This document shows, piece after piece, positions 53,401-63,384 of a stretch of 64,000 bases of DNA (within the stretch, counting starts at the first letter, position 1; each line of letters opens with the position of its first letter). Under the pieces are notes generated by a model. It did no database searches. It saw only the letters and a list, made by a program, of their open reading frames with translations, and was not told the origin of the DNA. Both the position numbers and the translations under genes were made by a program. The stretch spans positions 44,036,409 through 44,100,408 of the forward strand of contig CM034547.1 in assembly GCA_020055645.1 (NCBI GenBank), written 5' to 3'. This DNA is from Tomocerus qinae (Eukaryota > Arthropoda > Collembola > Entomobryomorpha > Tomoceridae).

Positions 53401-56400
53401 TTTCGATCGTGCTCATCTTCCTACGTAGCAATAATAATAATCATTGTGGAAGTGATTAGTTAGCCTTTCCCTCAAAACCTTATCGTAACTGTTATTTTCC
53501 AGAGAATGAAGAGGTTAGCTACTACCTTCAAGCAGTCTCCACATCGGATACACACTAACACGTGTCCATTAGGATGAGTCCTACGTGACCATTGACTGGG
53601 CTAGTGATAAGATACTCTTCTCGCTATTTTCCTACATGTACATATCCGATATCGTCATATGCCACCGAAAGTAAAATAAATGACTCTAACAATTCCTATT
53701 CAGTATGAAATGTATCAGTGCACAAATATAGCTAAGCCGGAGTATATTTAAGACTCCTACTCGTACTATCCACTCCAAAGTGTGTTCCCTCAGTTGTAAC
53801 ATTAGAGCCTACTTGATCCTATCCAAATAACACTAAAATTGTCTCTTCAAGAAAATACTACGTACTACTGTTTACTGTAGACTATTTACTATATCTGACA
53901 AAAATCTCAAGTGTATAATGCAATCCTGTTGAAGATAAATATCCTAACAAATGTGAGTAAACATTCGGCTAAACCAGCTTGACCTATCAGGTACGAAATG
54001 GATACCTATTTTACCCGTAATTACTTAGTAGGAGCATGGAGAACAAGGATTTCTCAACGGTAAGCTAACATTTGATTGTCAAAATAACAACCTAATATCA
54101 AATGTAATGGGAACAAGCCTCATTTTCTGGACTTTCCAGACCTAAATTACACAACGGTTAACAGTCAAAGGTATTAAATACGACATAGCGGTGAAGGGCC
54201 CTCAGAGCCATCTCCTATTTCCCACTAGGCCATCGGCTAACTAACTCCCGCATGCCCCGGCACAAACCAAAATACATCACCTTGCCGTGGAAGAACGAGG
54301 AAAACTCACAGACCTGAGTGTGTGCACTTCAGTAGTTGTTGGAGTAGCAGCGAGGAATGGGAGCAAGGTGGGAAGAAGCGACGAGTTCACCTACACCTTC
54401 ACTATTCATTCTTATTTCTTCAATTGGTCTATTGTCTTAACTAATTCTAAATAATAAAAAGTGCACCTCTAATTAATCTACTTTTACCTGTGTCACATCG
54501 GTCATCTCATTGGCAGGGACTCGGACAGCATCGTAGGGTAAGGTAAAGTATCGGGTCAAAGTACACTCATACAATAATAACATTATAAGATTGAGTCGGG
54601 TTGAGTCATGTCACAGCATTACATAATAATAATAATAATATTAGAACGTGTTATAGGTTACAGGCTAAAGGTATAACCCATATTACTTCAATTGTCGCCC
54701 ATACGTGGTTGGATCCTCCGAGACAGAGTCTATTACTCCCGATCACCAAAATTAATTTATTTTAAACATTTTCATGCATTTTATAATTACCTACAACTAA
54801 ATATTTAATATTCAATTAAAATATCGTGTAATATTTGTGTCGACAAAATTCTAATTGTTCTGGACACTTTCAGGTTATTTTGTAGCTGTTGACAGTGACG
54901 TAACTGATACGCCCTACACACAACACAACTACAAATAACCAATTATTAAGGACCACAATACACATAACAGGATCAGGTACAAACAAAAATACAATTAAGT
55001 TATTTTATTATTCTATAAAAACATTACATTCATTTTATTAGTACTATATGTAACTTATTATATACAATATTCCTTATAACAATTTAATACTGCGCCTGTG
55101 GCGCCAAACTTACCTTAATTTCGAACGACGGACAGTCGAGGGATACAGTACATTCCCTTTTAAGTTAAATCAACAAAGCCACGACGGCTATATTCAAATT
55201 ATCTAAAAACTCCTTGTCTCCTCCGCTCCTACTCCAACTCACTCAACTATTCCTAACAAACCTATGATTTTCATTTCACTCAAATTTTCATTTACATAAT
55301 TGAGTAGTCGCCGCCATAGTGAATGGTGCAGACATTTTTCAATTTTTCGTGTATATGTATACGTACATGTTGTTATAATTACATTTACCATTATAACAAA
55401 TAGTACTGACATTATTCAAACTTCTCTTATTTGATTAATGCAGTACATTTCATTATCATTCATGCACGGCCATAGCAAATGGTGCGCATTTTCAGATTTT
55501 TCATTTTATTCCTTTAGCACACTACACTAATATATATTTTTCTGCCATACTTACTTAATACAAATAAGTTCACGTCAATTATTCTGAATCTCAATTTGCT
55601 TTGACATCACTAACTTTTACTACATTTTACATAGTCACAGTTAGTGATATAAACAAATTACTACCTATTCTACTACATACAGCTTGACTCTCCCTAGTAC
55701 AGCAACTACGTCGCTTCGCCAGAGTTACTGGTGCATAATATTCTTAATAATTTATTCATCTAATTGTCTTATGCATGAAGAAGTCTTACGCTTATCAGTA
55801 TAGAAACAGAGACCAAAGACAAGCTAATTACAACAAAAATCGAGACATATCACAGACAAGCCCACCAAAGGCCAAGGCTAAAGCAAAGAAAATTGGTCAA
55901 ACTATTTCCATACCTAGTAACCCACACTCCCCGACATCAAGCCGACAAACTTCAACGGCCACAACCATGTCTATCCCAATACCAGCAACTCTTACTGCAG
56001 GACTAACTCCACAGGGAATAACCGATTTGCAAAACTACATCACAGCCATTACCCAAGTAGCAGTCACTGCTGCATCAGCCCATCCACAACAAACAGTAAA
56101 CCTATACGCGCCAAATGCAAATGTCAAGATCCCAGAATACAAGCCGAAAGAAATGACTGCACAGACTTACCTCGTCGATTTGGAAAGATACTTCAAGAGT
56201 CAAAACTACAAGGACACAGACTACCTAAACATGCTCACTACGGTTCTACCCAAGGAAAATAAGCAATGGTGGGACCTGAAAAAAGATGGAATTGCAGATT
56301 GGGATGAATTCAAAGTTGCCTTCCAAGCAAAATACGACACACCATCACATCAAGCGGAAAGAGCAAGACTCCTGTATTCACGTCGTCAGCATATCAATGA

Positions 56401-59400
56401 ACCTTTGGAGTCTTATGTCTACGATATGCTAACCCTAGCAAAACAAGTAAACCCCACAGAGGACGAAGCGGTATCAGTTGAACGAATACTTTCAACCCTG
56501 ACACCACGCCTAAGACTTGCAATTCCAAATGTTCATCCATTAACACCTAACAATTTAATTCAAAAAGCGACGCAAGCTCTCAAAAATCTACGAGACGAAG
56601 ACAATTACTACAAGCGACAGTCAGAATTACCACCAGTTACAAGACAGGAAGCGGAACAAAGGAAGCAACAACAAAAAGCTAATGAAGAATCACATTATCG
56701 TAACAACAATCATTCCACATCTTACACTCAAAACTACAATTCAGAATCAAACAACTTTCATGGCCCTGATCATAACCATTTCGATAGCGGAGGTCACCAA
56801 TCACATTTAAACATTCCTAAAGACAACTATCAAAGCTACATACCTAACATTAGTCACACAAATGGACATGAATTTGAACAAAACCAATACTCTTACCAAT
56901 CCAATGCAAAACCTATCAGTTCCACACATCAAATTTTGTCTCACTCAACTAATAGCAAAGAATATAGATGCAGACGGTGCACTGGGGTTGGACATCATGA
57001 ACGTCAGTGTCCAAGTAGCAGTGGAATTGTCCTTCCACTAGTGGATTCTTGCCACAGTCAGTGGTGCGATAATGGTCAACAGGACCAAGAGGATTTACAA
57101 GAAGAGCAGACCGAAAACGAAAATGGTACTTCAAATCAACCTGAAACAGCATCCATTTATCCCTCTTTAAACTTCTTAAAATAATCCATTTCCTTAATTC
57201 AACTTCATTCCCTCCCAATAACATAACATTTTGGTATCGCTACATGTAGGGTTGCATTTAGGATTAGCATTCGGTCCATGTTAGCAGTTGTTTCCTCGGT
57301 CTCACCCCAGTAATAGGAATATTAGGCTCTCACGCCAATGATTGAAATATTTTGTACCAGGCTCACACGCCGATAACTGAAGTAATTTGTATTAGGCTCT
57401 CACACCAAAAATTTAAGTAAACTGTTTTGGGCTCTCACGCCAATAACTGAAATAGAAATATTAGGCTCTTACGCCAGTAATGTAAGTAAAAATGAATAGG
57501 ACATCACACGCAAATTTTTGATTATAAGGTCTCACACCAAAAAGAAATTGTTTAAATGTTTTTACACTTTCTGTTGTAGTAGGAGAAGTTCCCGGAGCTA
57601 CCAACAGCAGTCTTGTACTTTGATAATTATAAAAATTGAAGTTATGGTCACACACCAAACTTTTGTTTGAGTTTTTCTAGATTCACTGTCGTGGCATGAG
57701 AAGTTCCTGGAACCACGGACAGCAATCGTTGTAACTCACCTATCATAATACCTAAAATTTTACAAACAAAATCTAGGTTTTTGGAAAATATTAGTTCGCA
57801 TCGTACTGACTGAAATCGAGTGCAAGCACTCCATTCCACTCAGCACTTGCGAAATCTGTAAATATACATATTATTAAAAATAAGTTAAGTAAAATTGATC
57901 CTATCGTGCACACTAAATCCTTTCAGAAAAAACGTACTTAAAAATCTAACCAAAAATAATCTTTCTTTAACTAATACTCCTAATTCTGATTTTCCTTCCC
58001 AAAAAAAAATTACGACCAAGGAATCCTAACATTAACTATAAAGTTTAATTTTTCATTTTAAAACTCCTCCTAAAACTAAAACCTTAATCCCCCTCTATTC
58101 TCCACCCCTAGTGTGGATTTTTGTTTACTATTTTCAGATCTTCGCCACGGTTAGTGGTGCGATGAATTTTAGAGACATTGCCGTGCTACGTAGCAAGTGG
58201 CCGACAGCGTCGTCGCTTCTCTTGATCACCAAAGGCTTTGGAACGAAAATCTGATGTACTCTGCAACTAATCTCATGAAGGAGACAATTAAAGCGTGAAA
58301 ACCGCCACGGCAAGTGGTGCTTTCAGACTATTTCTACACGAAGTTAGACCTCAAAAGGAAACCAATTTACAGCAGAGACGAAAAACGCGAAGAACCTCCC
58401 CCTACATCTTCAAAATTCTTTTGCTACCATTGCGGTTCCTCTTCTCACTTCAAGAACCAGAAGAACGAATTTGTGCATAATTTTCGCGAAGAAAACCCTC
58501 ACTGGAGACAAGAAAACTTTCGCCGCAGAGCCAAACGTCACATTAGGCTACAAAATCGTGTCCGAAACCAGACGCCTTCCGAAATACCACCAAGTCTAAG
58601 GATCGCCGTAGTAAGCGGTGCCCACGAATCTCCGGCGTATTCACAACCGCAGCTAGCGGTTCCCAAAGATCTCCTCCGGCAAATTCAGCCGCAGTCAGCG
58701 GTGCAAGGAAATCTCCGAAGAAAACAGCACAATTCGAGCACAGCAGCTTATCCCCGGAAGAAATCGCCGCAGAGAGCGGTGCATCAACATTAACACCCAA
58801 GAGGAAGTTCACCTCACAAAAGTCTTTGCCCGGTGAACTTCCCTTTCTGAGGGGAAATACTGAAGGGCCCTCAGAGCCATCTCCTATTTCCCACTAGGCC
58901 ATCGGCTAACTAACTCCCGCATGCCCCGGCACAAACCAAAGTACATCACCTTGCCGTGGAAGAACGAGGAAAACAGACAGACCTGAGTGTGTGCACTTCA
59001 GTAGTTGTTGGAGTAGCAGCGAGGAATGGGAGCAAGGTGGGAAGAAGCGACGAGTTCACCTACACCTTCACTATTCATTCTTATTTCTTCAATTGGTCTA
59101 TTGTCTTAACTAATTCTAAATAATAAAAAGTGCACCTCTAATTAATCTACTTTTACCTGTGTCACATCGGTCATCTCATTGGCAGGGACTCGGACAGCAT
59201 CGTAGGGTAAGGTAAAGTATCGGGTCAAAGTACACTCATACAATAATAACATTATAAGATTGAGTCGGGTTGAGTCATGTCACAGCATTACATAATAATA
59301 ATAATAATATTAGAACGTGTTATAGGTTACAGGCTAAAGGTATAACCCATATTACTTCAGCGGACTGAAAGTAATCTACAAGATAAAGGATGAGAAAATA

Positions 59401-59693
59401 CCATGAAAGTGGAACAATTTTTTCAGCAACTTCTTCAATATGATTTTCTTTTTGAGTTTCCATTTTAATTTCAGTTTCAGAAGAATAAATGCTTTTTTGA
59501 AGAAAAGACCTCCAATAAATCGAAGTGGCTGATGTCTCACATCCTGAACAAATCCTTTAATAGAATACGGATAGAGCCTTGATTCGGGAGCAGCAGCATT
59601 GTAATTGTAATTGTAGTCTGATTGAGCTTGAGTTAAAACAACAAACAAGGTAACACTAGAAGCGACTAAGAAACACAATGTAAATGAATGCAT
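47479..59693 (-). CDS. Secreted four-cysteine protein (paralogue C), intron 1 invaded by transposons
   Basis: Proposed exons are 59402-59693, 49157-49454 and 47479-47701, 813 nt in total (270 aa). Exon 1 gives a signal peptide (1-23), a Tyr/Asn/Ala stretch and a strongly cationic Leu/Lys amphipathic segment ending in HFHG. Exon 2 opens with a furin-like RKRR (99-102) followed by AAT, exactly as in paralogue A (RRRRAAT), then carries CIPKGIC (169-175). Exon 3 carries C235-x6-C242-P. Intron phases are 1 and 2, identical to paralogue A. That match, and the lack of any closer leader exon for exons 2-3, is why I join across 9.9 kb. The join is inference: exon 1 alone could encode a 105-aa secreted Lys/Leu-rich peptide that reads on to a stop at 59376. 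The donor (CATG|GTATTT) is only moderate. Confidence 0.62.
47702..49156. other. Intron 2 of four-Cys paralogue C
   Basis: 1.45 kb without a supported internal gene. Frames at 47909-48151 and 48398-48631 look random. Confidence 0.55.
49455..51149. other. Left part of intron 1 of paralogue C
   Basis: AT-rich DNA. A minus-strand TATATAAGG near 49930 and a short ATG frame at about 49846-49902 ending at an AAG|GTAGTT could be an alternative first exon, but that frame encodes no signal peptide. Nothing else is seen. Confidence 0.4.
51608..51853. repeat. Nested inverted-repeat unit rich in GGGAAATGGGAAA
   Basis: ATAGTTTCG at 51608-51616 and CGAAACTAT at 51845-51853 bound a 246-bp unit. It is made of self-complementary TTTCCCA / TGGGAAA words in both orientations, which could fold into several alternative stems. 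It probably is a small MITE inserted in the larger element. ATACAT occurs close to both ends, a possible target duplication. Confidence 0.4.
52284..52509. repeat. Nested MITE with GGRCCTATTACACC ends
   Basis: Fifteen-base ends at 52284-52298 and 52495-52509 are inverted copies with one mismatch. Similarity then continues inward through TTTTGCA...TTTG words. The 226-bp unit has no coding capacity and appears to be a separate small element nested in the 51150-52923 element. Confidence 0.45.
52924..54187. other. Intron 1 of paralogue C, between the two transposons
   Basis: About 1.26 kb without a supported gene. It contains a 15-bp inverted repeat (about 53099-53113 against 53123-53137). The minus-strand frame at 53198-53431 is Cys-containing, but its spacing does not fit the four-Cys family. 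Confidence 0.5.
54188..54191. repeat. Target-site duplication GCGG, left copy
   Basis: GCGG directly precedes the left LTR, and the same four bases follow the right LTR at 59360-59363. Four-base duplications are common for several Ty3/Gypsy-type elements. Confidence 0.75.
54192..54690 (+). repeat. Left long terminal repeat (499 bp)
   Basis: It is near-identical to the right LTR over its whole length, with TGAAG...CTTCA ends. The differences I see are one A/G near base 80 and two adjacent bases about 30 bp later. It contains an ATAATAATAATAAT run near its 3' end. Confidence 0.92.
55775..57184 (+). CDS. gag: Gag polyprotein of the LTR element
   Basis: 469 aa, intact. The N-terminal ~70 residues are Lys/Ser/Thr-rich. 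Residues about 120-280 form a retrotransposon-gag capsid-like domain (YFKSQNYKDTDYLN, WWDLKKDG, FKVAFQAKYD, LESYVYDMLTLAKQV, ILSTLTPRLRLAI), as in Ty3/Gypsy-type Gag proteins. A His/Asn/Ser-rich linker leads to a CCHC zinc knuckle C-x2-C-x4-H-x4-C (CRRCTGVGHHERQC) at about residue 407. It should assemble particles and bind the element's RNA. The frame ends with a stop with no pol overlap after it. Preservation of the frame while pol is absent suggests that Gag itself is useful to the element in cis. Confidence 0.88.
   Translation: MKKSYAYQYRNRDQRQANYNKNRDISQTSPPKAKAKAKKIGQTISIPSNPHSPTSSRQTSTATTMSIPIPATLTAGLTPQGITDLQNYITAITQVAVTAASAHPQQTVNLYAPNANVKIPEYKPKEMTAQTYLVDLERYFKSQNYKDTDYLNMLTTVLPKENKQWWDLKKDGIADWDEFKVAFQAKYDTPSHQAERARLLYSRRQHINEPLESYVYDMLTLAKQVNPTEDEAVSVERILSTLTPRLRLAIPNVHPLTPNNLIQKATQALKNLRDEDNYYKRQSELPPVTRQEAEQRKQQQKANEESHYRNNNHSTSYTQNYNSESNNFHGPDHNHFDSGGHQSHLNIPKDNYQSYIPNISHTNGHEFEQNQYSYQSNAKPISSTHQILSHSTNSKEYRCRRCTGVGHHERQCPSSSGIVLPLVDSCHSQWCDNGQQDQEDLQEEQTENENGTSNQPETASIYPSLNFLK
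57290..57540 (+). repeat. 35-bp tandem repeat after gag
   Basis: About seven diverged units start at 57325, 57360, 57395, 57430, 57464, about 57498 and 57528. Each begins GGCTCTCACGCCAATAACTG or a close variant. The period is 34-35 bp, except for the last unit. The first part of the unit is better kept than the rest. It is noncoding. Confidence 0.75.
57571..57722 (+). repeat. Duplicated 37-nt hairpin with compensatory changes
   Basis: Hairpin 1 (57571-57607) pairs CTGTTGTAG with CTACCAACAG. Hairpin 2 (57686-57722) pairs CTGTCGTGG with CCACGGACAG. Both are 37 nt, both have an 18-nt loop containing GAGAAGTTCC and both have a one-base bulge at the same place. The stems differ at two base pairs and both sides change together. 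The copies are 115 bp apart inside a diverged direct duplication. Confidence 0.7.
58314..58793 (+). CDS. Second frame of the LTR element with degenerate zinc knuckle
   Basis: 159 codons. A basic N-terminal part contains CYHCGSSSHFKNQ, which matches a CCHC knuckle except that the fourth Cys is missing. The C-terminal half is Gln/Arg/Pro-rich with PQ-x-AV repeats; these repeats are simply the translation of the 17-nt hairpin copies. I read it as a leftover of an older gag/nucleocapsid or a chance frame, not a proven gene. There is no protease or polymerase motif. Confidence 0.35.
   Translation: MVLSDYFYTKLDLKRKPIYSRDEKREEPPPTSSKFFCYHCGSSSHFKNQKNEFVHNFREENPHWRQENFRRRAKRHIRLQNRVRNQTPSEIPPSLRIAVVSGAHESPAYSQPQLAVPKDLLRQIQPQSAVQGNLRRKQHNSSTAAYPRKKSPQRAVHQH
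58861..59359 (+). repeat. Right long terminal repeat (499 bp)
   Basis: This copy has the same length and ends as the left LTR. It directly follows a purine tract and a TAC triplet, and is followed by GCGG. Its end is only 42 bp from the 5' splice site proposed for exon 1 of paralogue C. Confidence 0.92.
59360..59363. repeat. Target-site duplication GCGG, right copy
   Basis: This matches 54188-54191. Removing the element and one copy leaves an uninterrupted intron sequence. Confidence 0.75.
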
Positions 59694-62310: not shown

Positions 62311-63384
62311 ATATAGGAAAAATTGCCATAAACCTACGTTCTATTTCTAACTAGTATGGAATGCAATAAATATTAAGTAACACTTGAATGATATTGATAT
62401 TAATACACTTCAGTTATGTCATAACTCTTAAGTTACGTAATTTTAGCCAAAAGATGTTTACTATCAACAAATTAGGAATGTCGCTGCTTTTGTAATCTTG
62501 AATAAATCTATCGCAGTTTCCAAAAATAAATACCCTCTAGAAAGGTACATTATATAATCATATTGAGCAGTAACCTTTACAAAACATTTGCACTTGGAGT
62601 TAGGAATGAAAATTAAATCATTATTATTACCGAAGACCGTAAGAACTATTAAAACTCTAAGGTACCAAATGGAATAAATAAATGAAGCCAAATGATTACA
62701 AAAATAACTGTCCCATATACGTACTATGATTGATGAGGTTCGCTTTCACAATGTAATGTCGTAATGCAGAATACATTACCGATTGAAACCATAATTAATA
62801 ATAAATCACCATTAACTTCTTAAAATGGCAAGTTCAGTCAGTTCACCATTATTAATGCATCCATTCACAACGCTGTAATTTCGCTTTATGCATTGTTAAA
62901 CTGATTCATACATAATAGATAACAAAATTTACAAAAACAATGACACCTACAACATGGACAAGGGACAGCAGATATAAATGTCAACAATAAATGATTTTAT
63001 AACAACAAAATAACAATATACATATAGTACAAGTATAAAAATAATAAAACTTTATGGTATTTAAATATTTGCATAAATATTTTATTTTTAAAATAAATAT
63101 GGTATTTAATTAGGTACTTTAATTATAGCAAAGCGGTTTAGCTACATGGATAATGGTACAACTTAAACTTCTTTGCATTCTATAATTCTCAGACTAAAGG
63201 CTGTCCAAAAAGCCAAAGTTCAAGGACTACTGGTGTGGAATTGACATTTTCACGGTTAGGCACTTTTGGGCAGAATATGAACAAGGTACGCATACGTGGA
63301 CTATCTATGTTGGCCCACCAAAAGTGCTCAACCGTGAAAACGTCAATTACGAGAATTATTTCGACGAACAGGTATTAACTATAT
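62311..63384. other. Intergenic or 3' UTR sequence with a hairpin
   Basis: AT-rich. It holds the hairpin at 63239-63347 and probably the 3' UTR of the gene that ends at 63385. Confidence 0.45.
63239..63347. repeat. 109-nt imperfect inverted repeat, just 3' of a stop codon
   Basis: The arms 63239-63270 and 63314-63347 share TTTCACGGTTaGGCACTTTTGG against its reverse complement with few mismatches. The inner part pairs weakly. It lies 38 bp beyond the stop of the minus-strand gene and so may be in its 3' UTR. It could be a MITE or a structured UTR element. Confidence 0.5.

Follow-up and report, generated by a model that had tools for sequence, protein, structure and literature searches.

Why does a retrotransposon that keeps gag but no pol carry the same small hairpin 11 times? 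The question is raised by a stretch of 64,000 nucleotides (nt) from the collembolan Tomocerus qinae (assembly GCA_020055645.1, contig CM034547.1, positions 44,036,409 to 44,100,408; hereafter the window, whose own numbering we use), which holds a Ty3/gypsy-type, gag-only long terminal repeat (LTR) element at 54192-59359. A sequence-only reading had proposed that about ten covarying 17-nt hairpins lie within it in one orientation, selected as RNA structure and possibly serving packaging or dimerisation by Gag, or recruitment of a partner element's proteins. Our best explanation, to which we give a probability of about one half, is that these units are selected sense-RNA hairpins read by proteins of the family, most likely by Gag in packaging. 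All data come from this one genome (334 Mb in 115 contigs); labels of the form L0xx denote stretches of it, and the C17 element is a relative on contig C17. To our knowledge, the choice of RNA by LTR retrotransposons, and borrowing by gene-poor copies, are poorly known outside yeast and retroviruses.

Results

Eleven hairpins of one design

All 11 hairpins lie on the + strand and share the form N1 N2 C N4 N5 - RGNNA - N5' N4' G N2' N1', with five of five pairs formed when G.T is counted. Ahead of gag come GCCAT-AGTGA-ATGGT (hairpin 1, 55313-55327), GCCAT-AGCAA-ATGGT (hairpin 2, 55469-55483), GTCAC-AGTTA-GTGAT, that is GTCACAGTTAGTGAT, with T-A at pair 2 (hairpin 3, 55634-55648), and GCCAG-AGTTA-CTGGT (hairpin 4, 55718-55732). 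Hairpin 5 (GCCAC-AGTCA-GTGGT, 57051-57065) sits inside the gag coding sequence downstream of the zinc knuckle, and hairpin 6 (GCCAC-GGTTA-GTGGT, 58144-58158) ends 3 nt before an ATG at 58162 that, by eye, resembles the start of the third open reading frame (ORF) of C17. Beyond it lie GCCAC-GGCAA-GTGGT (hairpin 7, 58304-58318), GCCGT-AGTAA-GCGGT (hairpin 8, 58605-58619), ACCGC-AGCTA-GCGGT, with A-T at pair 1 (hairpin 9, 58646-58660), GCCGC-AGTCA-GCGGT (hairpin 10, 58688-58702) and GCCGC-AGAGA-GCGGT (hairpin 11, 58766-58780).

Exact matches to GCCNNRGNNANNGGTGC number nine between 55313 and 58782, every one on +; with up to two mismatches there are 12 in the window against a shuffle mean of 5.5, and 12 was reached in 0 of 100 shuffles. 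A scan of both strands of the 64 kb found the core CCNNRGNNANNGGT 10 times, and all ten copies lie in the element, on +, with both inner positions paired; the tenth (58646) begins with A, so that G1.T15 becomes A-T. The proposed number, span and single orientation were thus borne out, with hairpin 3 as an eleventh that falls outside the pattern and was absent from the earlier list. Every inner-pair variant that had been named (AT/AT, AG/CT, AC/GT, GC/GC and a wobble) is present: pair 4 is A-T in seven copies and G-C in four, and pair 5 is C-G in seven, T-A in two, G-C in one and T.G in one. The covariance model ranks exactly these 11 at the top in the 64 kb, with the next match at 12.6 bits (E 1.5), a ranking that is partly circular since the model was trained on mapped copies of the same family. 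No curated Rfam model matched 53900-59600 at E up to 1, and the core scan of the 64 kb on both strands placed none of the hairpins in the element's LTRs.

Some details had to be revised. The unit had been drawn as 17 nt with a trailing TGC; its T (T15) is part of the stem, and the GC that follows is poorly conserved, being altered at 19 of 135 aligned positions, little below the flank rate. The loop, described as GNNA and often GNRA, is an RGNNA pentaloop; a GNRA tetraloop fits five of the 11 copies, about the chance level, and that reading was dropped. Loop-loop dimerisation looks unlikely, the loops by inspection being mostly not self-complementary. We also rejected a peptide motif as the origin of the hairpins: within the 3' ORF, the four copies of clade A span two frames and give different peptides, many copies lie in untranslated regions (UTRs), and paired stem changes in lineage C (below) alter both amino acids.

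Pairing is kept while sequence changes

We mapped the window sites by sequence alignment onto 15 related stretches, irrespective of pairing. Among 26 distinct stem versions, changed pairs were kept in 15 cases and broken in six (15/21), against 107 kept and 234 broken (107/341) for a control set of 77 chance hairpins from the same element (Fisher p 0.00044), a count in which some control hairpins overlap, sites are not fully independent and one mapped site of L010 may be misplaced. For 34 distinct mapped hairpins, 95.9% of cells were paired versus 87.3% after shuffling, both-sided changes were found in 22 cells versus 7.4 when the sites were compared among themselves, and the covariation score was 0.412 versus 0.234; none of these values was reached in 500 shuffles. 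Hairpin 8 illustrates the changes, with pair 5 being T.G in the window, C-G in L012 and T-A in L015, and pair 4 being G-C, and G.T in L010; C17 has a hairpin whose left flank is similar, and there pair 1 is G-C and pair 4 A-T. One position of hairpin 8 fails to pair in L011, L013 and L014, as does one of hairpin 10 in L010, L011 and L013.

Substitution counts, made on 13 of the 15 stretches after two near-identical ones were excluded, follow the same outline. Stem positions 13-15 were substituted in 0 of 214 cases and stem position 1 in 10 of 72, and loop positions 6, 7 and 10 in 5, 1 and 0 of 72, while the free loop positions 8 and 9 changed in 16 and 15 of 72, close to the rate of the flanks (366/1969 and 430/1922, about 20%). 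Pair 1 is G.U in 29 of the 34 distinct mapped copies. Since such conserved G.U pairs stand only in sense RNA, and the hairpins keep a single orientation, the sense-strand RNA rather than the DNA appears to be the form that matters, and selection for RNA structure, as had been proposed, is well supported by these comparisons.

Distribution across the genome

Random spread in both orientations had been named as one outcome that would refute the proposal. Across 23 stretches, fully paired (5/5) hairpins number 158 in sense and one in antisense, a count inflated by the near-identical tandem units of L015 and L016. (At that locus, G000:C1:132228600-132242500, three element units stand in tandem, 99.8-99.9% identical where compared, with a longest sense ORF of 236 codons.) Genome-wide, the proposed pattern gave 173 matches versus 39 for a reversed control. 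The 100 matches listed come from contig 1 and part of contig 2. Element loci account for 76 of them, and both inner pairs are formed in 75 of these; the other 24 are isolated, and both inner pairs are formed in five. Applied to six clade B stretches, the covariance model gave 29 sense matches and no antisense one at E up to 3, a test that is not fully independent since two training rows of the model occur in clade B too; 11 other stretches (lineages C-F and the outgroup) gave one match, antisense, in L055. Clade A and B elements hold about 8 to 12 hairpin copies each, starting in the 5' UTR and continuing across gag (and pol) as far as the 3' end. Among the loci examined, the RGNNA form is confined to these two clades, which make up the element family; the hairpin frame is wider and recurs with other loops in lineages C-F.

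Other gag lineages carry other loops

The lineage C hairpin was found by a screen made without the earlier motif, and those of D, E and F by scans guided by C; the motif-free screen alone did not single out the latter three (largest classes 3 or 4). Lineage C, whose gag is 40-46% identical, has stems AGTCG, TGCCG, GACCG or GGCCG round YANTAST loops. When ten sites of L035 were aligned with eight other C loci, the majority were fully paired in most of the loci; the four sites in the 5' UTR are missing from L038, and site 3633 is without its outer pair in all eight loci that have it. For 18 distinct lineage C versions the covariation score was 0.443 versus 0.182 shuffled (0/500) and 86.7% were paired versus 70.8%, the number of pair types not exceeding shuffles (499/500), and the closing pair is G.U in 17 of the 18. 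Loops in D, E and F are such as TAATAGT, AANNATT and CGAMAAG, with 6-nt loops in D as well, and three copies of F differ in the outer pair, which is A-T, T-A or G-C. A CCR-N7-YGG frame is common to clade A and most C-F hairpins, the AGTCG copies of C lacking the second C.

Over 17 C-F loci, hairpins with four or five pairs number 73 in sense versus one in antisense, and six more distant gag loci have one in sense versus four in antisense, that is, no such family. The same scan of the clade B stretch L050 gave four sense and three antisense hairpins, two of the latter being sense hairpins read backwards. Looser rules raise the background, to 70 sense and 32 antisense in lineage C and 22 and 24 in the outgroup, where the looser scan took in downstream parts of five elements. 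A screen of the outgroup loci L052-L057 for some other repeated hairpin gave a largest class of 3 or 4 in sense and up to 5 in antisense, three shuffles per locus in the motif-free screen having given maxima of 3 or 4. In the gag tree a branch (99/99) sets the hairpin-bearing rows apart, and the lineages form subclades among them, although some outgroup branches are long.

Measured from where the zinc knuckle codons begin, the site at the end of gag lies at 81 nt in clades A and B and at 84 nt in lineages C and F. At this site in lineage C, a change from GACC/GGTC to GGCC/GGCC turns D to G and S to P jointly; the joint change keeps the RNA pair, which favours RNA pairing as the constraint. Lineage E adds three hairpins downstream of gag: one is in pol and two are near the ends of the third ORF. 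A search of viral contigs found no gag relative. In L035, a gag-only copy of lineage C, the zinc knuckle is damaged or lost and the hairpins remain.

Gene-poor copies and a relative with pol

The hairpins persist in copies that have lost most of gag. In L011 gag aligns at its two ends only (nt 1-211 and 1232-1407), the LTRs are identical and the longest sense ORF has 184 codons, and nine of its 11 hairpin sites are fully paired; in L014 only the gag end is left (nt 1277-1407), the LTRs are 99.8% identical, the longest sense ORF has 209 codons and nine hairpins are fully paired. Judged by LTR identity, both appear to have moved recently without encoding a whole Gag or pol. Because recently inserted, gag-deleted and pol-less copies keep nine fully paired hairpins each, the hairpins would act in cis.

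The C17 relative is fuller. Its LTRs are 99.8% identical, its gag has one stop, its third ORF is present, and its pol gives reverse transcriptase, integrase and weak protease matches. Eight of its hairpins follow the core pattern with every pair formed: three precede gag, one lies where gag ends, one is in pol and three are at the third ORF (one 3 nt before the first ATG, one inside and one past the end); a ninth, GTCACAGGCAGTGAC, lies before gag with T-A at pair 2. In C17 as in the window element, the LTRs run from TGAAGGG to ACTTCA and the primer site opens with attgtcgccca; the sequence preceding the 3' LTR is similar too, and both have a 4-bp duplication. A candidate for the partner element that had been suggested exists, with pol, similar cis signals and the same hairpins; it looks as a supplier of reverse transcriptase and integrase would be expected to look, and mobilisation in trans is what we infer.

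A third ORF resembling Rrp6

The third ORF matches Rrp6/EXOSC10 (PDB 4nlb, 4.4e-22), with exonuclease and HRDC domains, and its alignment to Rrp6 shows the residues of the DIE, H...R.D and Y...D motifs, which we take to be catalytic exonuclease motifs. The C17 version carries a C-terminal CCHC motif. Exonuclease and HRDC domains follow pol in one element each of C, E and F (HRDC in E below the cut-off), and the third ORF was found in all four hairpin lineages viewed downstream of pol (B, C, E and F), with exonuclease/HRDC matches at L050:1022-2488 (-), L058:1430-3133 (-), L059:2259-3824 (+) and L060:1250-2878 (-). Relatives were found by tblastn in five of five more distant elements looked at (L061-L065). 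Because these distant elements, whose gag loci showed no such hairpins, encode relatives, the third ORF is spread more widely than the hairpins, and we rejected it as their sole reason. A literature search joining Rrp6, retrotransposon and HRDC found no report. By eye, a cag like a splice acceptor, then a hairpin, then the third-ORF-like ATG follow one another at 58130-58164, and the spacing from hairpin to ATG is equal in the window element and C17.

Structure of the window element

The element is bounded by a 4-bp target site duplication, GCGG (54188-54191 and 59360-59363), as L009, L012, L014 and C17 likewise have 4-bp duplications. Its LTRs (54192-54690 and 58861-59359, both +, TGAAGGG...ACTTCA) are 499 bp each and differ at three positions (99.4% identity), and the primer binding region, recognised by comparison with C17, occupies 54691-54725 (+). 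The gag gene (55775-57184, +) encodes 469 amino acids with a Retrotrans_gag match (3.6e-7) and a CCHC knuckle identified by motif. A remnant of the third ORF at 58314-58793 (+; blastp to the C17 version, 2e-19 and 5e-05) aligns to residues 71-95 and 399-478 of that version, the intervening exonuclease part being gone. The window's ORF list shows no pol in this copy.

The copy thus has the TG...CA LTRs, short target duplication and retrotransposon gag domain of Ty3/gypsy elements, and the intact LTRs and gag without pol of gag-only non-autonomous ones; the Ty3/gypsy pol order (protease, reverse transcriptase, RNase H, integrase) is absent from it. Through C17 the family fits Ty3/gypsy by its sequence matches, with a weak protease match, reverse transcriptase and then integrase, RNase H being matched only in a piece of L032. 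With 57190-58860 as query, 34 matching pieces were found across the genome.

Other structures were noticed in passing. Tandem repeats of 35 nt at 57320-57490, with GGCTCTCACGCC-like cores, could fold as small hairpins. Two related, longer hairpins of the 3' UTR, with arms CTGTTGTAG...CTACCAACAG (57565-57615) and CTGTCGTGG...CCACGGACAG (57680-57728), differ in matching fashion in their arms and are kept in several relatives; the pair folds with modest z-scores (-0.48 and -1.74). Beyond the element, an inverted repeat, ttcacggttaggcacttttgg / ccaaaagtgctcaaccgtgaa, was spotted by eye at 63240-63347.

Discussion

Each hairpin has a 5-bp stem with a nearly fixed central C-G, compensating pairs round it and an RGNNA loop. 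In the explanation that we prefer, such hairpins would be sites, repeated across the genomic RNA, that let the family's own proteins recognise it and bring it through the replication cycle, and the most likely reader would be Gag, during packaging. Gag is the natural candidate because the loop class follows the gag lineage and the sites cluster before gag and at its end. A structure conserved in the genomic RNA, as looked for in a packaging signal, is what the comparison of relatives revealed, and the packaging role that had been suggested is compatible with it. Copies without pol, or without pol and most of gag, keep the hairpins, as they would if they depended on recognition in trans.

Several observations weigh against parts of this explanation. 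As regards pairing, some sites are broken in relatives (L010, L011, L013, L014 and L015), and lineage C site 2545 is broken in eight of nine loci; both-sided changes relative to the window copy make up only 2 of the 15 kept changes, where the controls have 25 of 107; among the 34 mapped hairpins three pairs show both-sided change, a number reached in 35 of 500 shuffles, and the corresponding number for lineage C was reached in 355 of 500. Many loci are near-copies, so that counts are not independent, and the shuffles leave relatedness in. In C-F the gag-end hairpin overlaps a conserved peptide, DDRxxWS or a close variant, and protein constraint may add to RNA constraint there. Within 5.5 kb downstream of the pol start, the lineage F stretch had no hairpins and the lineage C stretch one that fits, so spread along the whole RNA is not general. 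The main point against a role of Gag is that the zinc knuckle is damaged or missing in the D and E Gags examined (L040, L041 and L043) while the hairpins are kept, so the reader is not the knuckle in every lineage; clade B, too, has members with the same hairpins but different knuckles.

Persistence without the knuckle would suit a host RNA-binding protein that binds the hairpins for nuclear export, stability, splicing or translation of unspliced RNA, as would their positions in UTRs, gag, pol and third ORF and, in both the window element and C17, 3 nt before the ATG at the third-ORF start. A single host reader would not, however, be expected to give loop classes that track gag lineage within one host genome, nor does it sit well with the six related gag loci that showed no hairpins, and we consider it rather unlikely. 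The third ORF could itself be the reader, the hairpins marking or shielding the element's own RNA or directing 3' trimming. Its presence in every hairpin lineage viewed, its alignment with the catalytic motif residues of Rrp6, the hairpins that flank it or lie within it in C17 and lineage E, and the C-terminal part that the window copy retains after losing the nuclease all fit such a role. Yet all five distant relatives encode it although their gag loci are without hairpins, the looser scan that included their downstream parts was unbiased, and derivatives without the ORF keep the hairpins, which makes this improbable in our judgement.

Two further explanations dispense with an RNA reader. Template switching by reverse transcriptase or polymerase is known as a general process that corrects quasi-palindromes; it could mend mismatched arms and so keep pairing without selection, and would yield both-sided changes. 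It would also perfect G.T pairs, yet G.U is the commonest pair 1 among the mapped copies and the usual closing pair in C; it leaves the fixed loop bases and the conserved place and orientation unexplained, and most chance hairpins of these elements are not kept. We give it hardly any weight. A DNA site bound by a protein dimer (an insulator or a transcription factor, for instance) has a parallel in Sireviruses, which carry high-copy palindromic repeats in LTRs and near the envelope gene (PMC2829016). Here the arms are variable but matching, G.T mismatches are conserved, one orientation prevails and the LTRs of the window element have none, and we regard a DNA site as very improbable.

Selected RNA hairpins, most likely read by Gag, would have counterparts among known systems. 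HIV-1 SL3 and the GACG loops of murine leukaemia virus are retroviral packaging stem-loops recognised by Gag, and resemble the present ones as short hairpins of genomic RNA with loop G; here, in contrast, one hairpin is present in about 8 to 12 copies per element, from 5' UTR to 3' end, and Gag binding is putative. Dispersed packaging signals have been reported for the capsids of the RNA viruses MS2 and STNV, where one genome likewise bears numerous short hairpins that share a core; the present case differs in being an LTR retrotransposon, with a near-identical core and compensated stems. Plant TR-GAG elements are comparable by structure only, as LTR elements with gag and without pol; they are plant elements, and titles and abstract openings on them mention no such hairpins. 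Sirevirus motif boxes are repeated symmetric motifs in divergent Ty1/copia retrotransposons, placed in LTRs and near env, with a CGG-CCG core and a proposed regulatory role (PMC2829016), unlike the internal hairpins of one orientation with G.U pairs seen here.

A bolder idea, which we think quite improbable, would join the two halves of this work: a gypsy-type group with its own Rrp6-like enzyme, in one branch of which lineage-specific hairpins and a family protein would form a self/non-self code for RNA, marked RNA being packaged or spared and gene-poor copies surviving by the mark. In any case, one genome holds several lineages with a similar hairpin frame and different loops, beside fuller relatives and deleted derivatives, and these lineage-specific loops make the specificity of recognition directly testable across lineages. 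For the biology of the family, the hairpins suggest a tag by which element RNA gets recognised and copied.

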